From an uncultured Roseburia sp. (GTDB lineage Bacteria; Bacillota; Clostridia; Lachnospirales; Lachnospiraceae), in the NCBI GenBank assembly GCA_947567625.1, contig CANONN010000028.1, forward strand, positions 1 through 46,202: a stretch of DNA of 46,202 nucleotides, given 5' to 3'. Shown here piece by piece: positions 33,163-40,636 of this stretch; the stretch's first letter is position 1; every line of letters begins with the position of its first letter. The notes under the pieces are model-generated. The model did not search any database. It saw only the letters and a list, made by a program, of their open reading frames with translations, and was not told the origin of the DNA. The translations under genes and the position numbers were made by a program.

Positions 33163-33429
33163 ATGTCAACCTTGGAAAAAGCAATCGGATTATTGCAAAG
33201 AATGCCCGAACATAAGCTGGAAACCATATATACGTATATGCGTTTCGTAGATTCACAAATCGATAACGCAGATTCTGCTTCTACTGAAAAGAATGACACA
33301 GACTCTATAGCAAGAAAACGAAAGGGATTTCAGGGACTTCTATCTTTTGCCGGGACGTTGCCGGAAGATTTTGATTACAAAAAAGAACTTGAGGAAGCAA
33401 GGGAAGAAAAATATGCTCATTTTATTTGA
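33163..33429 (+). CDS. Putative antitoxin of a PIN-toxin module
   Basis: 88 aa, starting 10 nt after AGGAGG. The N-terminus (LEKAIGLLQRMPEHKLETIYTY) is helical; the C-terminal half is charged and probably disordered until it binds the toxin. Its end overlaps the PIN toxin start by 17 nt, the normal antitoxin-first arrangement. The MPEHKL motif resembles LPEYKI in the antitoxin at 34362-34583. It should neutralise the toxin and repress its own promoter. No DNA-binding domain is obvious, so the family is not assigned. Confidence 0.65.
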   Translation: MSTLEKAIGLLQRMPEHKLETIYTYMRFVDSQIDNADSASTEKNDTDSIARKRKGFQGLLSFAGTLPEDFDYKKELEEAREEKYAHFI

Positions 33430-33829
33430 CACGAATATCATACTTGATATCCTTGAAAAACGCCAGCCCTTTTATGAAGCATCCAAGTCTGTTTTAGAGG
33501 AATGTATTTCAAATGATATACGTGGCTTTATTGCACTGCATTCTGTATCAAACATTTATTATATTTTGCGAAAACGCTTTTCAGTCTCAGACAGGCGAAA
33601 GCTTCTCCTTGATCATCTGGACTTGCTGCAAGTGGCAGGCACTGACCATGAACATGTAAAAAACGCTCTGCAAAGAGAATGCTTTTCCGACTTTGAGGAC
33701 TGCCTGCAAGATGAATGCGCAAAACAGGTTCATGCAGATTATATTGTAACCCGAAATATAACGTACTTTTCCACATCGGATATACCGGCAGTAACCCCGG
33801 AAGATATGCTTAAAATCTTTCATCGATAA
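33413..33829 (+). CDS. PIN-domain (VapC-like) toxin ribonuclease
   Basis: 138 aa from ATG 33413, chosen because the PIN fold begins at once (MLILFDTNIILDILEKR). Asp at DTN and Glu at EEC are early acidic residues; FEDCLQDECA and YIVTRNITYF give the later acidic and N-T-R/N parts of the active site. PIN toxins cut tRNA or rRNA with Mg2+. The start overlaps the antitoxin gene by 17 nt. The module lies inside the tRNA-Leu mini-element and may explain why the decayed element persists. The exact RNA target is unknown. Confidence 0.8.
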   Translation: MLILFDTNIILDILEKRQPFYEASKSVLEECISNDIRGFIALHSVSNIYYILRKRFSVSDRRKLLLDHLDLLQVAGTDHEHVKNALQRECFSDFEDCLQDECAKQVHADYIVTRNITYFSTSDIPAVTPEDMLKIFHR

Positions 33830-33982
33830 ATGACCGAAAATCCTTTACTTTTCCCGCAAGAATAGAAATAATAAAAGGGACAAGAAGTAAATAGCAACTC
33901 GTCAGACTACTTTCTCCAAATCGGGTAGTTTTACGAGCAGAAACTGAAAAGTATCTTGCGTGATGAAAAGACGGATTCATAA

Positions 33983-34003
33983 TCAAGTCCCATCTTCCGC
34001 ACT
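33983..34003 (+). repeat. attR: tRNA 3' end copy 2
   Basis: Exact 21-bp copy of 32498-32518. It lacks the rest of the tRNA. A long intrinsic terminator begins 12 nt later, as expected if this was the original tRNA 3' flank before insertion. Confidence 0.85.
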
Positions 34004-34014
34004 GGTTGAACGAT

Positions 34015-34052
34015 ACGGGAAGTCTTATTTTATAAGGCTTCCCGTGTTTTTT
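34015..34052 (+). terminator. Probable original tRNA-Leu terminator, now displaced
   Basis: The stem of 14 pairs (ACGGGAAGTCTTAT with ATAAGGCTTCCCGT, one G-T wobble) has a 3-nt loop and is followed by GTTTTTT. No gene ends just upstream of it except the tRNA fragment in attR. Confidence 0.85.
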
Positions 34053-34101
34053 ATTCCCGCATTTCGAAAGTACGTTCTGTACGATTGTGTTTCCAGTTCC
34101 G

Positions 34102-34365
34102 CTAATACTTATTGTATATCTGTCCCCTGTTTCCGGCATCAATCACACAAATAATTAATTCGTGGCTGTTCACTTTATATATAATCCGGTAATCGCCCAC
34201 ACGGAGCCTGTAAAACCCCGCGCTTTTCCTGCCTTTTAACCTCTTTATGTCGTTTCCTTCCGGCAGTTCATGAATTGCCCTTAATACCCTCTCTTTATCC
34301 GGCTTTGGCAGTTTTATGATAAACTTTTCTGCCATTTTTTCAATGACTATCCTGTACTTTTTCAC
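34102..34365 (-). CDS. RelE/ParE-family toxin
   Basis: 87 aa. The RelE/ParE fold is clear: KKYRIVIEKMAEKFIIKLP, then VLRAIHELPEGNDIKRLKG, and GFYRLRVGDYRIIYKV followed by ELIICVIDAGNRGQIY. Members cut mRNA on the ribosome (RelE) or poison gyrase (ParE); the sequence alone does not decide. The start overlaps the antitoxin stop by 4 nt (ATGA-type), so the two are translationally coupled. It lies just outside attR. Confidence 0.85.
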   Translation of the reverse strand: MKKYRIVIEKMAEKFIIKLPKPDKERVLRAIHELPEGNDIKRLKGRKSAGFYRLRVGDYRIIYKVNSHELIICVIDAGNRGQIYNKY

Positions 34366-34583
34366 AGTACAACCTCTTCCCTTGCCGCTAGATCTTCAAG
34401 TGTAACTGTCTGATGCTTTTCGGGATCCGGATTATTCAGATATTCTTCTACTAATTTTTCACAATACAGATCATCCTCTATATCATCGTCAAACTGTATT
34501 CCTCTTAAAAAAAGAAGCAGACTGCTGATTTTATATTCCGGCAGTTTATCAATAATCTGTTTCGCTAATTCCCGTTCACTCAA
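34362..34583 (-). CDS. Antitoxin of the RelE/ParE module
   Basis: 73 aa from TTG 34583, chosen because AGGAGGGG lies 5 nt upstream; a longer reading to 34652 has no such site and an unnatural hydrophobic start. The helical N-terminus (ELAKQIIDKLPEYKISSLLL) is followed by an acidic tail (FDDDIEDDLYCEKLVEEYL) suited to wrapping a basic toxin. The N-terminus resembles that of the antitoxin at 33163, although the partner toxins belong to unrelated families. Confidence 0.7.
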   Translation of the reverse strand: MSERELAKQIIDKLPEYKISSLLLFLRGIQFDDDIEDDLYCEKLVEEYLNNPDPEKHQTVTLEDLAAREEVVL

Positions 34584-34670
34584 AGCAACCCCTCCTAAAA
34601 TTAAAATTCCTATGTTAGAAATAAAATGTAATTGACCCAAAAACAACCGCATAAATAAGGATGTGTCCCT

Positions 34671-36073: not shown

Positions 36074-36277
36074 CTAATCCGCAAATTCAATAATACTCTT
36101 CGCCGGAATCTCTGTCACAACAATCTTTCCCATCTGCTGCATCTTTTGAATGCTCTTCTCCACTTCACTTTCGTCCAGCTGCAGCTGCTGCGCTGTCTGC
36201 CTGACGGTTGGCGCATATCCATTCTGATCCGATAAGGATTTCATATAATTATATACTTGCATCGTATGATCGTCCAT
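36074..36277 (-). CDS. Free-standing LexA-like winged-helix protein
   Basis: 67 aa, with GAAGG 8 nt before ATG. The whole protein matches the LexA N-terminal DNA-binding domain: QVYNYMKSLSDQNGYAPTVRQ, then LDESEVEKSIQKMQQMGKI. The autoproteolysis domain is absent, so it cannot be cleaved like LexA. It has a consensus promoter (36413-36385), and the AraC gene follows on the same strand. It could repress its own divergent region or compete for LexA-like sites; neither is shown. Confidence 0.75.
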   Translation of the reverse strand: MDDHTMQVYNYMKSLSDQNGYAPTVRQTAQQLQLDESEVEKSIQKMQQMGKIVVTEIPAKSIIEFAD

Positions 36278-36384: not shown

Positions 36385-36413
36385 ATTATATCTTTACCAT
36401 TCCTGATTGTCAA
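36385..36413 (-). promoter_or_regulatory. Consensus sigma-A promoter of the LexA-like gene
   Basis: On the minus strand: TTGACA (36413-36408), 17 nt, TATAAT (36390-36385). Both hexamers are perfect. The 359-nt gap 36278-36636 holds only this promoter and the divergent one at 36487. Confidence 0.85.
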
Positions 36414-36486: not shown

Positions 36487-36515
36487 TTGACAGCCCTACC
36501 CGCATACTTTATTCT
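36487..36515 (+). promoter_or_regulatory. Sigma-A promoter of the chaperone gene set
   Basis: TTGACA (36487-36492), 17 nt, TATTCT (36510-36515), 121 nt before the GrpE-like gene. No CIRCE element (TTAGCACTC-N9-GAGTGCTAA) is present, so HrcA control is unlikely. Confidence 0.75.
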
Positions 36516-36636: not shown

Positions 36637-37359
36637 ATGTTTTTTAAAAAACGCAAAAACCAGGAAGATTCCCTCCGCCAGCTGGCAGACCAGCTTGCCG
36701 CCCTGTCGCACAACGAAACAGCCGCAAAAGAAGGTCTGGAGCAGCTGCTTGGCCTGCGTCAGGAATGCAGCGGTATGTCGCAGCAGCTGGCCCGGTATTT
36801 TTCCGGCGCTGCCCGGGAAAAAGACGAGCTGCAAAGCGCCCTGCAGCAGACAGCCGGACGCCTGGAACAGCAGCTGGGCCAGCTGCAGTCTGACGTACAC
36901 AAGCATGACATGGCGATCGAGAATCTGCTGGATGAATGGGAAGAAAAAAAATCGGATGAAGAAAGCGTAAAAGCGCGCCAGCAGGAATCTGACCAGACGG
37001 AGCAGCTGCTGCTTGGCCTGTTTGAAGCTTACCAGGAACAATTTTGGAACTTAAAGCACTATGCCGCGTCCAAAGACGGCAGCTGGGCTGCCCAGATTGC
37101 TTTAATGGAAATCAATCTGGAGCATTACCGGCGCACCTGTGCGATCAGCCTGATTCAGGATTGCGGGGTGGGCGTGGATTATGACCTGCATGAAGTGATC
37201 GAGGCCATTGATACGACAGACCCTTCACTGGATAAAACGATTGCCGATATTTACCGCTGCGGCTATCTATATAAAGGAAAGGTTCGTAAGAAGGCCCGGG
37301 CAGCCGCATACCGCTTCACCCCTGCTGCTCCGGACAGCCAGGAAAACGGACAGACTTAA
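36637..37359 (+). CDS. GrpE-like nucleotide exchange factor
   Basis: 240 aa. ATG follows GGCAGGATAAAAAA. Residues 1-130 are a long Glu/Gln/Leu-rich helix with coiled-coil character. The C-terminal 60 residues match the GrpE beta domain: VDYDLHEVIEAIDTTDPSLD, then IADIYRCGYLYKGKVRKKA, like FDPNxHEAV...GYxLxGKVxRPA. GrpE opens the nucleotide pocket of DnaK. The gene stands 95 nt before an Hsp70 gene, which strengthens the call. It is too divergent to be the housekeeping GrpE, and no hrcA, dnaJ or canonical dnaK is here. Confidence 0.7.
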   Translation: MFFKKRKNQEDSLRQLADQLAALSHNETAAKEGLEQLLGLRQECSGMSQQLARYFSGAAREKDELQSALQQTAGRLEQQLGQLQSDVHKHDMAIENLLDEWEEKKSDEESVKARQQESDQTEQLLLGLFEAYQEQFWNLKHYAASKDGSWAAQIALMEINLEHYRRTCAISLIQDCGVGVDYDLHEVIEAIDTTDPSLDKTIADIYRCGYLYKGKVRKKARAAAYRFTPAAPDSQENGQT

Positions 37360-37454
37360 CAAGAACCATGCGCATATCCGGTTTTGGCCGGAATCTTTCA
37401 CTACAGGCGCGCCGCCGGAAGCAGCCGGCAGGCGCGCTGGAAACAGGAGTTTAA

Positions 37455-39158
37455 ATGAGTACAATAATAGGAATCGATCTCGGTACATCCACGACGGAGG
37501 CAGCTGTCATCCAGAACGGAAAGCCGCTTATGATCTTTAATCTGGAAAACGAAATTATCACCCCGTCCGCAGTCGGCCTGGATGCCGACGGTACGTTTGT
37601 AATCGGGGAAAAAGCAAGGGCGCAGTATTTATTATCACCGGAACGCACAGCGATCGAGGTCAAGCGCAAGATCGGTACAAACGAAAAGATCCCGCTTGGC
37701 AAGGATACGTATACGCCCGTCGAGCTGTCCGCAAAGCTGCTGGAGTATGTCAAATCCTATGCATCGGAATATTTAAAGACCGAAATTACCCGCGCCGTCA
37801 TCTCTGTACCGGCTTATTTTGATGACCTGCAAAGGCAGGCTACGGTAGAAGCGGGAACAAAAGCCGGCCTGGAGGTCATGCGGATCTTAAATGAACCGAC
37901 GGCCGCCGCCCTCAGCTACGGCCTGGAGCATATGGAAGAGGAAAGCCATATCCTCGTCTATGACCTTGGCGGCGGTACGTTCGATGTCACGCTGCTGGAG
38001 ATGTTTGACGGCGTGCTGGAGGTAAAGGCCAGCAGCGGCGACAACCAGCTCGGCGGCAAGGATTTTGATGAAAAAATTATGGACTGGCTGATCAGCCAGT
38101 TTAAAAGCAAGCATGGCATTGACCTTTCCAAGGACAAGTTTGCTATGGTGAAGCTGAAAGAAGAAGCGGAACGATGCAAAAAGACGCTGAGCTCCTCCAG
38201 CGCCTGCCAGGTCCTGATCCCGATGATTGCCGAAAAGTCCGGCGAACCGCTGGCTTTGGACGAAACAATTACCGTAGAGGCTTTTGAGGAAATGACAAAA
38301 GACCTGATCAACCGCACACACCCGCCGATCGACGTCGTGCTGACGGACAGCGGTATCCTTGCGGAAGAGATTGACCGGGTGATTCTCGTCGGCGGTTCTA
38401 CCAGGATGCCGCTTGTGGCGAAGGATATTGAGGCGTATCTTCATATGGAGCCTGCGCAGGCGGTAAATCCGGATTATGCGGTTGCAGAAGGCGCCGCGAT
38501 CCAGGCTGGTATTATCGAAGGCAGTATCCATCAGGAAGACAGCATTATTATTACGGACGTAAATCCTTATACCTTGGGTATCCGTGTTGTGGATGATTTT
38601 TCCATGGACCGGATGGCTGTTGTAATACCGCGGAATGTAACGATTCCTGTGACACGCAGCGAGACTTACTTTACCAGCACCGATTACCAGACGGTTGCCC
38701 ATATCGAAGTCTACCAGGGCGAAAGCACCACTGCGAGCAGAAACCATTTTCTGGGAGATTTTGAGATCCACGGCATTCCTGCTAAAAAGGCAAAAGCGGA
38801 GCGCATCAACGTGGAATTTTCCTATAACCTGAACGGTATGCTGAATGTAACAGCCACGATTCCAAGCACCGGCGCAGATGCATCCATTGAAATTAATATG
38901 ATGCAGGAGCAGGATTCCGAGGAGGAAACCGTCGATGTAAGCGCCTGGAAGGAAGCGCCGCATGCCAAGCAGTTCCGTACGATTATCCGCCGCGCGGAGC
39001 GCATGCTCAAGGATCCGAAGGTGCAGGAAGACCCGCTGCTGGCAGAAGATCTGGACGCCGCCATTTACGACTTAAAAGAAGCGATCTTATCCGACGACCT
39101 CGAACTGGCAGGTGTGTGCGAATCAGACCTGATGTATCTGCTGGATGAATTATCGTAA
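37455..39158 (+). CDS. Accessory Hsp70-family chaperone, short form
   Basis: 567 aa, against about 610-640 for DnaK. GGAG lies 4-5 nt before ATG. The ATPase domain is complete: GIDLGTSTTEAAV (phosphate 1), ILNEPTAAALSYG, YDLGGGTFDVTLLE (phosphate 2), and RVILVGGSTRMPLV (adenosine). The substrate-binding beta domain (about 375-490) contains NPYTLGIRV and LGDFEIHGIPA, and the helical lid is short with no EEVD-like or disordered tail. Size and layout recall HscC-type Hsp70s. It lies between a GrpE-like gene and a J-domain gene, forming a full chaperone cycle. Clients are unknown. Confidence 0.9.
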   Translation: MSTIIGIDLGTSTTEAAVIQNGKPLMIFNLENEIITPSAVGLDADGTFVIGEKARAQYLLSPERTAIEVKRKIGTNEKIPLGKDTYTPVELSAKLLEYVKSYASEYLKTEITRAVISVPAYFDDLQRQATVEAGTKAGLEVMRILNEPTAAALSYGLEHMEEESHILVYDLGGGTFDVTLLEMFDGVLEVKASSGDNQLGGKDFDEKIMDWLISQFKSKHGIDLSKDKFAMVKLKEEAERCKKTLSSSSACQVLIPMIAEKSGEPLALDETITVEAFEEMTKDLINRTHPPIDVVLTDSGILAEEIDRVILVGGSTRMPLVAKDIEAYLHMEPAQAVNPDYAVAEGAAIQAGIIEGSIHQEDSIIITDVNPYTLGIRVVDDFSMDRMAVVIPRNVTIPVTRSETYFTSTDYQTVAHIEVYQGESTTASRNHFLGDFEIHGIPAKKAKAERINVEFSYNLNGMLNVTATIPSTGADASIEINMMQEQDSEEETVDVSAWKEAPHAKQFRTIIRRAERMLKDPKVQEDPLLAEDLDAAIYDLKEAILSDDLELAGVCESDLMYLLDELS

Positions 39159-39241
39159 CAGTTCCATGGGTGATCTGAACGGTTACGAAATTATCCGCAG
39201 CATGATAAGCAAGCAAACGTACCATCCGGAGAGTGAATTTC

Positions 39242-40636
39242 ATGAATAACGATTATAAGATACTCGGGCTGGAACAAGGCGCATCACAGGCGGACATAAA
39301 AAAGGCTTATTTTAAAATGGTCCGCCTGCATTCGCCGGAATCCGATCCGGAGCAATTCCAGAAAATACGTAAAGCCTATGAAAATCTGAAAGATGCACAG
39401 AAAAAGCCGGACGGGCCTGTATTCCCGCCTCTGAGCAATCCGCAGGCGATTAAAATGATGCAGCAGATCCAGCTCTACCGCAAGGAAAAAAACATTACCC
39501 GCTATCGGGACTGCTGCGAAGAAGCCTGGAAAAAATTTCCGGACGACATTCATTTTCTATATCTGCTCATCATGGCGCAAAGGCGCTGCGGAAATACCGG
39601 AAAAGCGGTAAAAAACGCGGAGCTTTTAGTCAGTAAGGACCCCAACAACAAGTGGTATCAGATGGCCCTGGCCTTTTCCTGCCAGGAGCGCGGGTACTGG
39701 CAAAAAGCCCTGGCCGCCTGTGAAAAAGCCTTTTTCCTCGGATGCCGGGACATTGACTTTTTGTTAATGTACGCCAGCGCCTGTGATGATTATAATGACC
39801 CCCAAAAAGGCGTCCTGGTCCTTTCTGAAATTGTCCGCAAAAAAACGCGCTGGTCCAGAGAGGAAGTCCCGAAGGTCGCAGACGCTTTTTCCGGCCTGCT
39901 GGCTATGCACAAAGCAGCCGGTACGATCAGCTTGCTGGAAATTCTGGAGCTGCTGTATCCTTTTTTGACACAGTACGGCATTTATTTAAAAGAATTTACC
40001 CCGCAGCTGTGCCTGATCCTTTCAGGCGCCTGTGCGAACGTCACTTATGGCAGCGCGGAATACCAGAAAGCGGATGAGATCTTTTCCTATATCCAAAAAT
40101 CATGCACTGACTTTTCGGACAATGAGCTGATCGCCGCTGCCATTGAAAACTTCCACTTTCACCGCGCACTGTGCGATCCCCGGCTGAGTGAGCTGATGCT
40201 TGCTTATCTGGAGCTGTTTCATGATTACGACGAGGACGAGGACGATCCGCTCTTTAAAAAATTCGCCATGCTGGACGCACAGCTGATGATGCTTGAACAG
40301 CGGGAAGACACGCTGCGCCAGGCACAGATCCTGCGGACCGAGCATCCGCAGGAGTACCGGAATATTGAGGATTTTGTGAAAAAGCTGGAAAATCCCTCCA
40401 AAATCCCGCTTTTAAAAGAGCATCTGCAAAAGACCTACCGGCGCCTGGAGCCATACTATGCGTGCGGCCATTATTACGAAACGTATCCGCAGGAAAAAGT
40501 CAGGGCCATGGGCAGTATCATCAACGAAGGCCATGAATCGGAGCCTTTTGTGCGCACCGGTAAAAAAATTGGCCGCAACGACCCATGCCCCTGCGGCTCC
40601 GGCAAAAAATACAAGCACTGCTGTATGCCGAAATAG
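39242..40636 (+). CDS. J-domain / TPR / SEC-C protein
   Basis: 464 aa from ATG 39242; GGAGAG (39228-39233) has 8-nt spacing, and the GTG at 39233 overlaps it. The J-like domain (about 1-60) keeps helices II and III ([14 protein letters not shown] and [15 protein letters not shown]), but HPD reads HSP. Residues about 75-400 are helical, TPR-like. The last 22 residues are a SEC-C zinc motif ([16 protein letters not shown]), as in SecA tails, which binds ribosomes or SecB-like partners. It should deliver clients to the adjacent Hsp70. The lost HPD Asp raises the question of how it triggers ATP hydrolysis. Confidence 0.8.

Follow-up and report, generated by a model that had tools for sequence, protein, structure and literature searches.

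The HPD (His-Pro-Asp) motif of the J-domain is treated as indispensable for J-proteins. Among prokaryotic Hsp70s, PMC8215388 distinguishes three types, DnaK, HscA, and HscC, the last of which it describes as having a 4-8 residue insertion in L1,2, a shortened helix B, and a deleted GrpE signature. Precedents are known both for an accessory Hsp70 with its own GrpE, as described for Myxococcus (PMC11019930), and for accessory Hsp70/J pairs. The locus considered here lies on a contig of an uncultured Roseburia sp. (CANONN010000028.1, assembly GCA_947567625.1), whose 46,202 nucleotides were analyzed as a whole and are referred to below as the window. Within positions 36637-40636, three open, co-directional, and closely spaced genes encode a GrpE-type nucleotide exchange factor, an accessory Hsp70, and a J-protein with TPR and SEC-C parts (hereafter the triad; Table 1), and the observed triad is confirmed as real. 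Comparison of the sequences suggests, with a probability of roughly 0.6, that the triad constitutes a dedicated Hsp70 machine encoded in a single gene cluster, with a J-domain that would act independently of the HPD histidine. A more specific proposal, namely that it represents a fourth kind of bacterial Hsp70 machine combining a histidine-independent switch, re-made Hsp70 positions at the linker (L391M/I, L392T) and at residue 155, and a private GrpE with a re-made loop, is tentative and falls somewhat short of even odds.

Absence of the HPD histidine in triad J-proteins

A 123-residue segment of the Hsp70, in the form of an alignment of six sequences, served as query against a collection of 84,980 species genomes, and the best 80 of the 285 matched relatives were kept. 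The query segment was free of GrpE and J sequence, but the six sequences that seeded it derive from loci initially identified via GrpE, and five of the 80 are seed or own-species loci (L095, L118, L134, L159, and L160). Once L102, which covers only the C-terminal end of a split gene, had been set aside, the 82 aligned open reading frame (ORF) rows yielded 81 J-domains from 79 sources, including both the window and the own-species locus L095; a further ORF, from L140, has no J-domain.

The J-protein of the window matches the Pfam families DnaJ (43.8 bits, cut-off 27.8), TPR_14 (31.0 bits), and SEC-C (41.6 bits), the architecture already proposed in a first-pass annotation made without database searches. 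That annotation overlooked the missing HPD histidine, in place of which the J-domain reads S-P-E. Histidine is found at position 33 in none of the 81 J-domains, the residue being S (52), T (15), P (12), A (1), or D (1), while position 34 is P in 80 and position 35 is E (75), D (4), or Q (2). L10, Y25, F47, A53, R at position 51, and K or R at position 22 are kept throughout. Other changes include K26 to F in 77 and M30 to R in 80 J-domains; the K48 position is basic in only 27 of them and Q in 49, and the residue before position 33 (the Tyr32 position) is H in 38, Y in 33, and F in 10. By sequence, these proteins resemble type IV J-proteins, a type presumed not to stimulate ATPase activity, in having a clear J-domain in which HPD is non-conservatively replaced (81/81).

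In triads outside the family, the J-proteins carry PPD or PPE in seven of seven cases, the eighth being cut at that place. Housekeeping DnaJs have HPD in 5/5, with two more found by a pattern presupposing H-x-D, and HscC-linked J-proteins have HPE in all four instances (one on contig C10 of the same genome, E. coli DjlB and DjlC, and L238, the last by eye). Of the matches obtained for the 80 triad loci, none is a J gene with HPD. Two tandem J genes, both without the HPD histidine, lie beside the triad Hsp70 gene at L124:1917-4777 and L149:3662-5979. Of 79 complete J ORFs, 67 contain the SEC-C motif, as do 7/7 outside the family; an Asp-rich tail replaces it in the J-proteins of L114, L141, L143, L150, and L155. 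The first-pass annotation had concluded that all the parts of a DnaK cycle are supplied; the three genes are indeed present, but a complete cycle should not be assumed, because the J-domain lacks the HPD histidine.

Changes and class of the partner Hsp70

Contact sites between DnaK and DnaJ were taken from PMC8215388 and PMC13012618, according to which His33 of DnaJ contacts L391/L392 of the DnaK linker. Several Hsp70 contact sites are kept in the triad, namely R167, N170, D393, and P419 in 81/81 and Q378 in 75. Position 391 is M (56), I (20), V (3), or L (2); since it is Leu in all 33 DnaKs and all three HscCs, with J-partners that retain the histidine as far as observed, this change goes with the loss of the histidine. 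L392 is T in all 81 triad Hsp70s and T or A in HscC, while D477 is replaced by S, T, or A in all 81 and is also lost in the three HscCs, so that neither change is tied to the histidine loss. K155, presumably with a role in signaling, is hydrophobic in 81/81 triad Hsp70s and basic in all 33 DnaKs and three HscCs.

As stated earlier for this locus, the triad Hsp70 is short (567 residues, against 623 in the genome's housekeeping DnaK), yet it matches Pfam HSP70 with 514.5 bits, and the ATPase residues D8, G10, K70, E171, D194, and T199 are invariant in 81/81. It scores below the NCBIfam equivalog cut-offs for DnaK (531.1 < 648 and 518.2 < 822.55) and HscA (408.3 < 708.55), and its identity is 40-43% to the DnaK of its own genome, 37% to a second accessory Hsp70 of that genome, and 33% to E. 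coli HscC. In a full-length tree of 120 sequences (81 triad, 33 DnaK, 3 HscC, 1 HscA, and 2 unplaced), the triad Hsp70s form one clade (support 0.994) that lies outside the clade of 33 DnaKs under midpoint rooting and has HscC as its sister (support 0.999). This sister relation, for which only three HscCs were available, is absent from the tree of the nucleotide-binding domain (NBD) and receives a support of 0.347 in that of the substrate-binding domain (SBD).

The GrpE-signature loop (284-300) comprises 16-17 residues in all 81 triad Hsp70s, as in 33/33 DnaKs, and P293 is kept in 81/81; the loop has 10 residues in 3/3 HscCs, where the signature (290-295) is deleted, and 6 in one HscA. All 81 triad Hsp70s have 4 to 8 additional residues in L1,2, and the helix A-B region is shortened (<55) in 77/81; one of the three HscCs has no L1,2 insertion. 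Judged by the lengths of the loop, L1,2, and the helix A-B region, the triad Hsp70 combines an HscC-like substrate domain with an ATPase domain bearing a GrpE loop. It probably adds a further clade to DnaK, HscA, and HscC, one with its own GrpE.

The six Pfam HSP70 rows of this genome include three full Hsp70s, i.e., the housekeeping, the triad, and the second accessory protein on contig C10. The last is of the HscC type (570 residues) with a shortened GrpE loop, and is followed by a 422-residue J-protein with HPE (L015:5690-8652) that has a probable transmembrane segment (judged by eye); among the ORFs of 9.3 kb near it, no GrpE was found.

A divergent, full-length GrpE

The identity of the first triad gene as a GrpE is firm on sequence and profile comparison. 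Pfam GrpE matches residues 65-220 with 31.7 bits (cut-off 25.8), the best PDB match of a profile built from 72 family members is E. coli GrpE (1dkg_A, E 5.4e-8, profile positions 13-192 of 205), and the hhalign probability between this profile and five housekeeping GrpEs is 98.9%. The protein falls below the NCBIfam GrpE equivalog cut-offs (15.0 versus 212). A PDB search with the single triad sequence found no GrpE, and single-sequence searching recovered the family poorly, profiles being required. Given the Pfam, 1dkg_A, and hhalign results, the protein is a divergent but full-length homolog, helical part included, which corrects the initial description of a beta domain alone on a long helix. 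Only two GrpE genes in the genome pass the cut-off, the housekeeping one and that of the triad.

Some triad GrpEs bear very long acidic low-complexity C-terminal tails (L136:370-3000, L141:4241-6223, L150:4922-6319, and L155:4433-5881), with total lengths of 876, 660, 465, and 482 residues in that order. Another GrpE-like protein (294 residues) is encoded between what look by eye like two dynamin-like GTPase genes (L090:3504-8059); the surrounding 12 kb gave no Hsp70 match.

Linkage, distribution, and selection

Genes for GrpE, Hsp70, and the J-protein occur in the same order and on the same strand in 74 of the 80 loci, or in 69 of 75 when the five seed loci are set aside. GrpE is missing in L115, L124, L126, L133, and L173 and the J gene in L142, and all six of these loci reach contig ends. 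The gap is at most 100 bases between the GrpE and Hsp70 genes in 65/74 loci and between the Hsp70 and J genes in 66/74. In view of this constant linkage, a chance neighborhood was rejected. The best 80 of 285 comprise Eubacterium, Lachnospiraceae, further Clostridia of gut or rumen, and one Caldicoprobacter; carriers thus include gut bacteria as well as other anaerobes. When the GrpE was used to query 398 genomes across the phylum, 277 gave matches, most of them scoring under 60 bits; the 12 best places besides the window comprised eight triads from eight other families and four housekeeping operons, and a lower-scoring match (G408, 45 bits) is a GrpE-Hsp70 pair without a J gene. The description of the locus as a self-contained accessory Hsp70 system is therefore supported, since the first gene is a GrpE by sequence and profile comparison and the three genes stay together in relatives.

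One extra ORF of 163-215 residues occurs in seven of the eight outside-family clusters and in L169; that of L197, the sole one scanned, encodes a TPR protein, and the gene order differs in this locus. Within the family, the triad is patchy, being found in 6/394 genomes (its own included, and some of them incomplete), and the only other genome sampled from its genus gave no match. A rough survey that took, for either flank, the longest ORF in the adjoining 1.5 kb (125 neighbors in 92 clusters) revealed no conserved flanking gene; a conserved client gene next door was rejected, as the largest cluster holds eight of the 125 neighbors. A role in phage defense or phage biology was likewise rejected: the only PADLOC match is to the J-protein's SEC-C tail, and the Hsp70, J, and SEC-C families matched in PHROGs have no function assigned.

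The ratio of nonsynonymous to synonymous substitution rates (dN/dS) between the window triad and five relatives is 0.04-0.21 where computable, as a rough estimate with dS saturated or undefined in many pairs, and the J-domain has a lower value than the middle part of the protein in the 4/4 pairs where both could be computed. Low ratios in all three genes argue against degeneration. Among individual loci, L054 has an in-frame TAG at ~7162, early in the triad Hsp70 gene, and L102, L123, L173, and L174 have frame breaks in the Hsp70 or J gene; all these interruptions may be sequencing errors or real losses. A GrpE-like gene paired with that of a 572-residue Hsp70 outside the triad clade, without the triad J gene, lies just before sbcD/sbcC-like genes in L237:820-3391 (by eye).

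Proposed mechanism and competing explanations

In a dedicated machine with a histidine-independent J-domain, the J-domain would dock on its partner Hsp70 via contacts kept on both sides, with Pro34 facing Pro419, Glu at 35 facing R167/Q378, and a contribution from basic residues of helix II. The hydrolysis signal would then reach the re-made linker, in which L391 has become M or I and L392 has become T, in the absence of the HPD histidine; Ser or Thr at position 33 may replace the hydrogen bond of His33 to the linker backbone, and the Pro variants would manage without it. The TPR and SEC-C parts would select the client, and the private GrpE would reset the cycle. Clients near ribosomes or the Sec system, at which SEC-C hints according to the first-pass annotation, would be possible, as would the dedicated client pathway proposed there. 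With regard to the switch, a designed J-domain analog without HPD can stimulate Hsc70 (PMC13254874), and PMC13012618 cites systems in which a triple alanine change of HPD does not fully abolish activation.

Several observations weigh against histidine independence. According to PMC8215388, exchange of the HPD His for Gln or of the Asp for Asn abolishes stimulation in every system tested, and a 2026 review (PMC13254874) calls HPE the sole tolerated HPD replacement and considers it enigmatic whether the other losses of HPD were accidental or selected. In 38 of the 81 J-domains, that of the window included, the His at the Tyr32 position could in principle substitute for the missing one. On the Hsp70 side, G292 and H295, both invariant in the 33 DnaKs, are changed in the triad proteins (H295 in 81/81), and R56, which belongs to one of the cleft salt bridges, is missing from most of them. 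With only P293 kept, the loop gives no proof of GrpE binding; its altered state could reflect a private GrpE that makes contacts of its own, or a site that has been weakened. The D477/K48 pair is also weak support, because D477 is lost in HscC while DjlB and DjlC keep K48. The changes at G292/H295 and the unspecific change of D477/K48 make histidine-independent readings slightly less likely, and the tether and HscC readings discussed below slightly more so. Moreover, the genes are co-inherited and the counts ignore kinship, so that the changes on both partners may represent one old event.

The main rival casts the J-protein as a type IV (pseudo-) J-protein, a non-stimulating tether that would bind the Hsp70 and place it at a client or site, with hydrolysis being intrinsic, driven by the client, or driven by the housekeeping DnaJ. 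The uniform absence of the histidine, within the family (81/81) and outside it (7/7), is what such a protein would show, simulations in PMC13012618 indicate that H33A keeps J-domain binding and blocks the hydrolysis-ready state, and the Pro found at position 33 in 12/81 cannot stand in for the hydrogen bond of the histidine. The motif has not been lost at random, however, as P34 is kept in 80/81 and E, D, or Q at position 35 in 81/81; the Hsp70 linker has changed as well, and a dedicated GrpE suggests that the cycle is in use. On balance, a tether is considered unlikely, if still the strongest of the alternatives.

It is considerably less probable that the locus is a known HscC-type system (HscC with DjlB/DjlC) to which a GrpE gene was added. 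The sister position of HscC in the full-length tree, the length of the window Hsp70 within the 550-580 residue range given for HscC in PMC8215388, the longer L1,2 (81/81) and shorter helix A-B region (77/81), the shared T or A at L392 and loss of D477, and the resemblance of triad J-domains to DjlC all point in this direction. Against these stand the normal length of the GrpE-signature loop in 81/81 triad Hsp70s, deleted in 3/3 HscCs, which led to the rejection of a plain HscC system, as well as the failure of the sister relation in the NBD-only tree and its low value (0.347) in the SBD-only tree, the HPE motif of all four HscC-linked J-proteins, and an identity to E. coli HscC (33%) below that to the own-genome DnaK, with three HscCs compared. 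A spare DnaK served by the housekeeping co-chaperones, its neighbors being incidental or decaying, would suit the patchy occurrence (6/394 family genomes) and the broken reading frames of several relatives; the constant linkage of the three genes, the low dN/dS in all of them, and the lower value of the J-domain than of the middle part (4/4 computable pairs) render it very improbable.

The triad is a natural set, under purifying selection, in which the histidine loss is complete among the members examined and is genetically tied to one Hsp70 and one GrpE. The Hsp70 linker, with which this histidine makes contact in DnaK-DnaJ, has changed as well. The three proteins, homologs of which occur in named and sequenced strains such as Eubacterium plexicaudatum ASF492 (L099) and Caldicoprobacter algeriensis (L169), would offer a natural test of the J-domain switch.

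Genomic context and regulation

The features of the locus are listed in Table 1. No CIRCE element (controlling inverted repeat of chaperone expression) was detected in the window by a scan tolerating up to three mismatches, in agreement with the first reading of the sequence; in the same genome, a perfect CIRCE precedes the housekeeping hrcA-grpE-dnaK-dnaJ operon. The divergent LexA-like regulator initially placed at the promoter corresponds to a 67-residue ORF that just passes the Pfam cut-off, but the match covers only the DNA-binding part, and the ORF is too short for the autoproteolytic (peptidase) domain. Of the 80 related loci, L095 alone shares it, and this locus and the window have identical Hsp70 segments. 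Its role as a component of the system was rejected on this count, and the ORF is probably not part of the triad system. A full sigma-70 consensus (TTGACA-17-TATAAT, 12/12) precedes this ORF at window positions 36385-36413 on the reverse strand. Further upstream of the triad, positions 33163-34652 hold two small gene pairs that by eye resemble toxin-antitoxin modules, with one PIN-like ORF and one RelE-like ORF.

Table 1. Features of the triad locus, with window coordinates
Feature	Coordinates	Strand	Evidence
GrpE-type nucleotide exchange factor, 240 aa	36637..37359	+	Pfam GrpE, profile match 1dkg_A, hhalign
Accessory Hsp70, 567 aa, own clade	37455..39158	+	Pfam HSP70 514.5 bits, tree, residue tests
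J-domain (SPE, no HPD) + TPR + C-terminal SEC-C protein, 464 aa	39242..40636	+	Pfam DnaJ, TPR_14, SEC-C
Candidate sigma-70-type promoter, TTGACA-17-TATTCT, ~120 bases upstream of the triad	36487..36515	+	Consensus scan, 10/12 matches
LexA-DNA-binding-like ORF, 67 aa, divergent	36074..36277	-	Pfam LexA_DNA_bind, 24.3 vs cut-off 23.7 bits

Comparison with known chaperone systems

In the titles and abstract openings returned by a literature search, which reached few subscription papers, a complete triad with a histidine-less J-domain is not named. Among known systems, E. coli HscC with DjlB/DjlC resembles the triad in combining an accessory Hsp70 of similar length and with a shorter lid with nearby J genes, whose J-domains are similar in sequence and also have Glu for Asp. 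HscC differs in having no GrpE-signature loop and no GrpE among its listed adjacent features; DjlB and DjlC keep the histidine (HPE), and DjlC, the only one of the two scanned, has no SEC-C or TPR match. HscA and HscB likewise form a dedicated Hsp70/J pair, but HscA has no GrpE-signature loop and is located among the isc genes. For the J-domain itself, the closest parallel is provided by Pam16/Tim16 and other type IV J-proteins, described in PMC13254874 as having a conserved HPD-less J-domain tied to one Hsp70 machine, although Pam16, according to the same review, works beside the HPD J-protein Pam18. For the exchange factor, the counterpart is MxDnaK2 of Myxococcus xanthus, a second Hsp70 that shares one operon with its own GrpE, MXAN_6672; as described in PMC11019930, with which the comparison was made by description, this is a two-gene operon with no linked J gene, unlike the triad, in which Hsp70, GrpE, and J-protein are encoded together.

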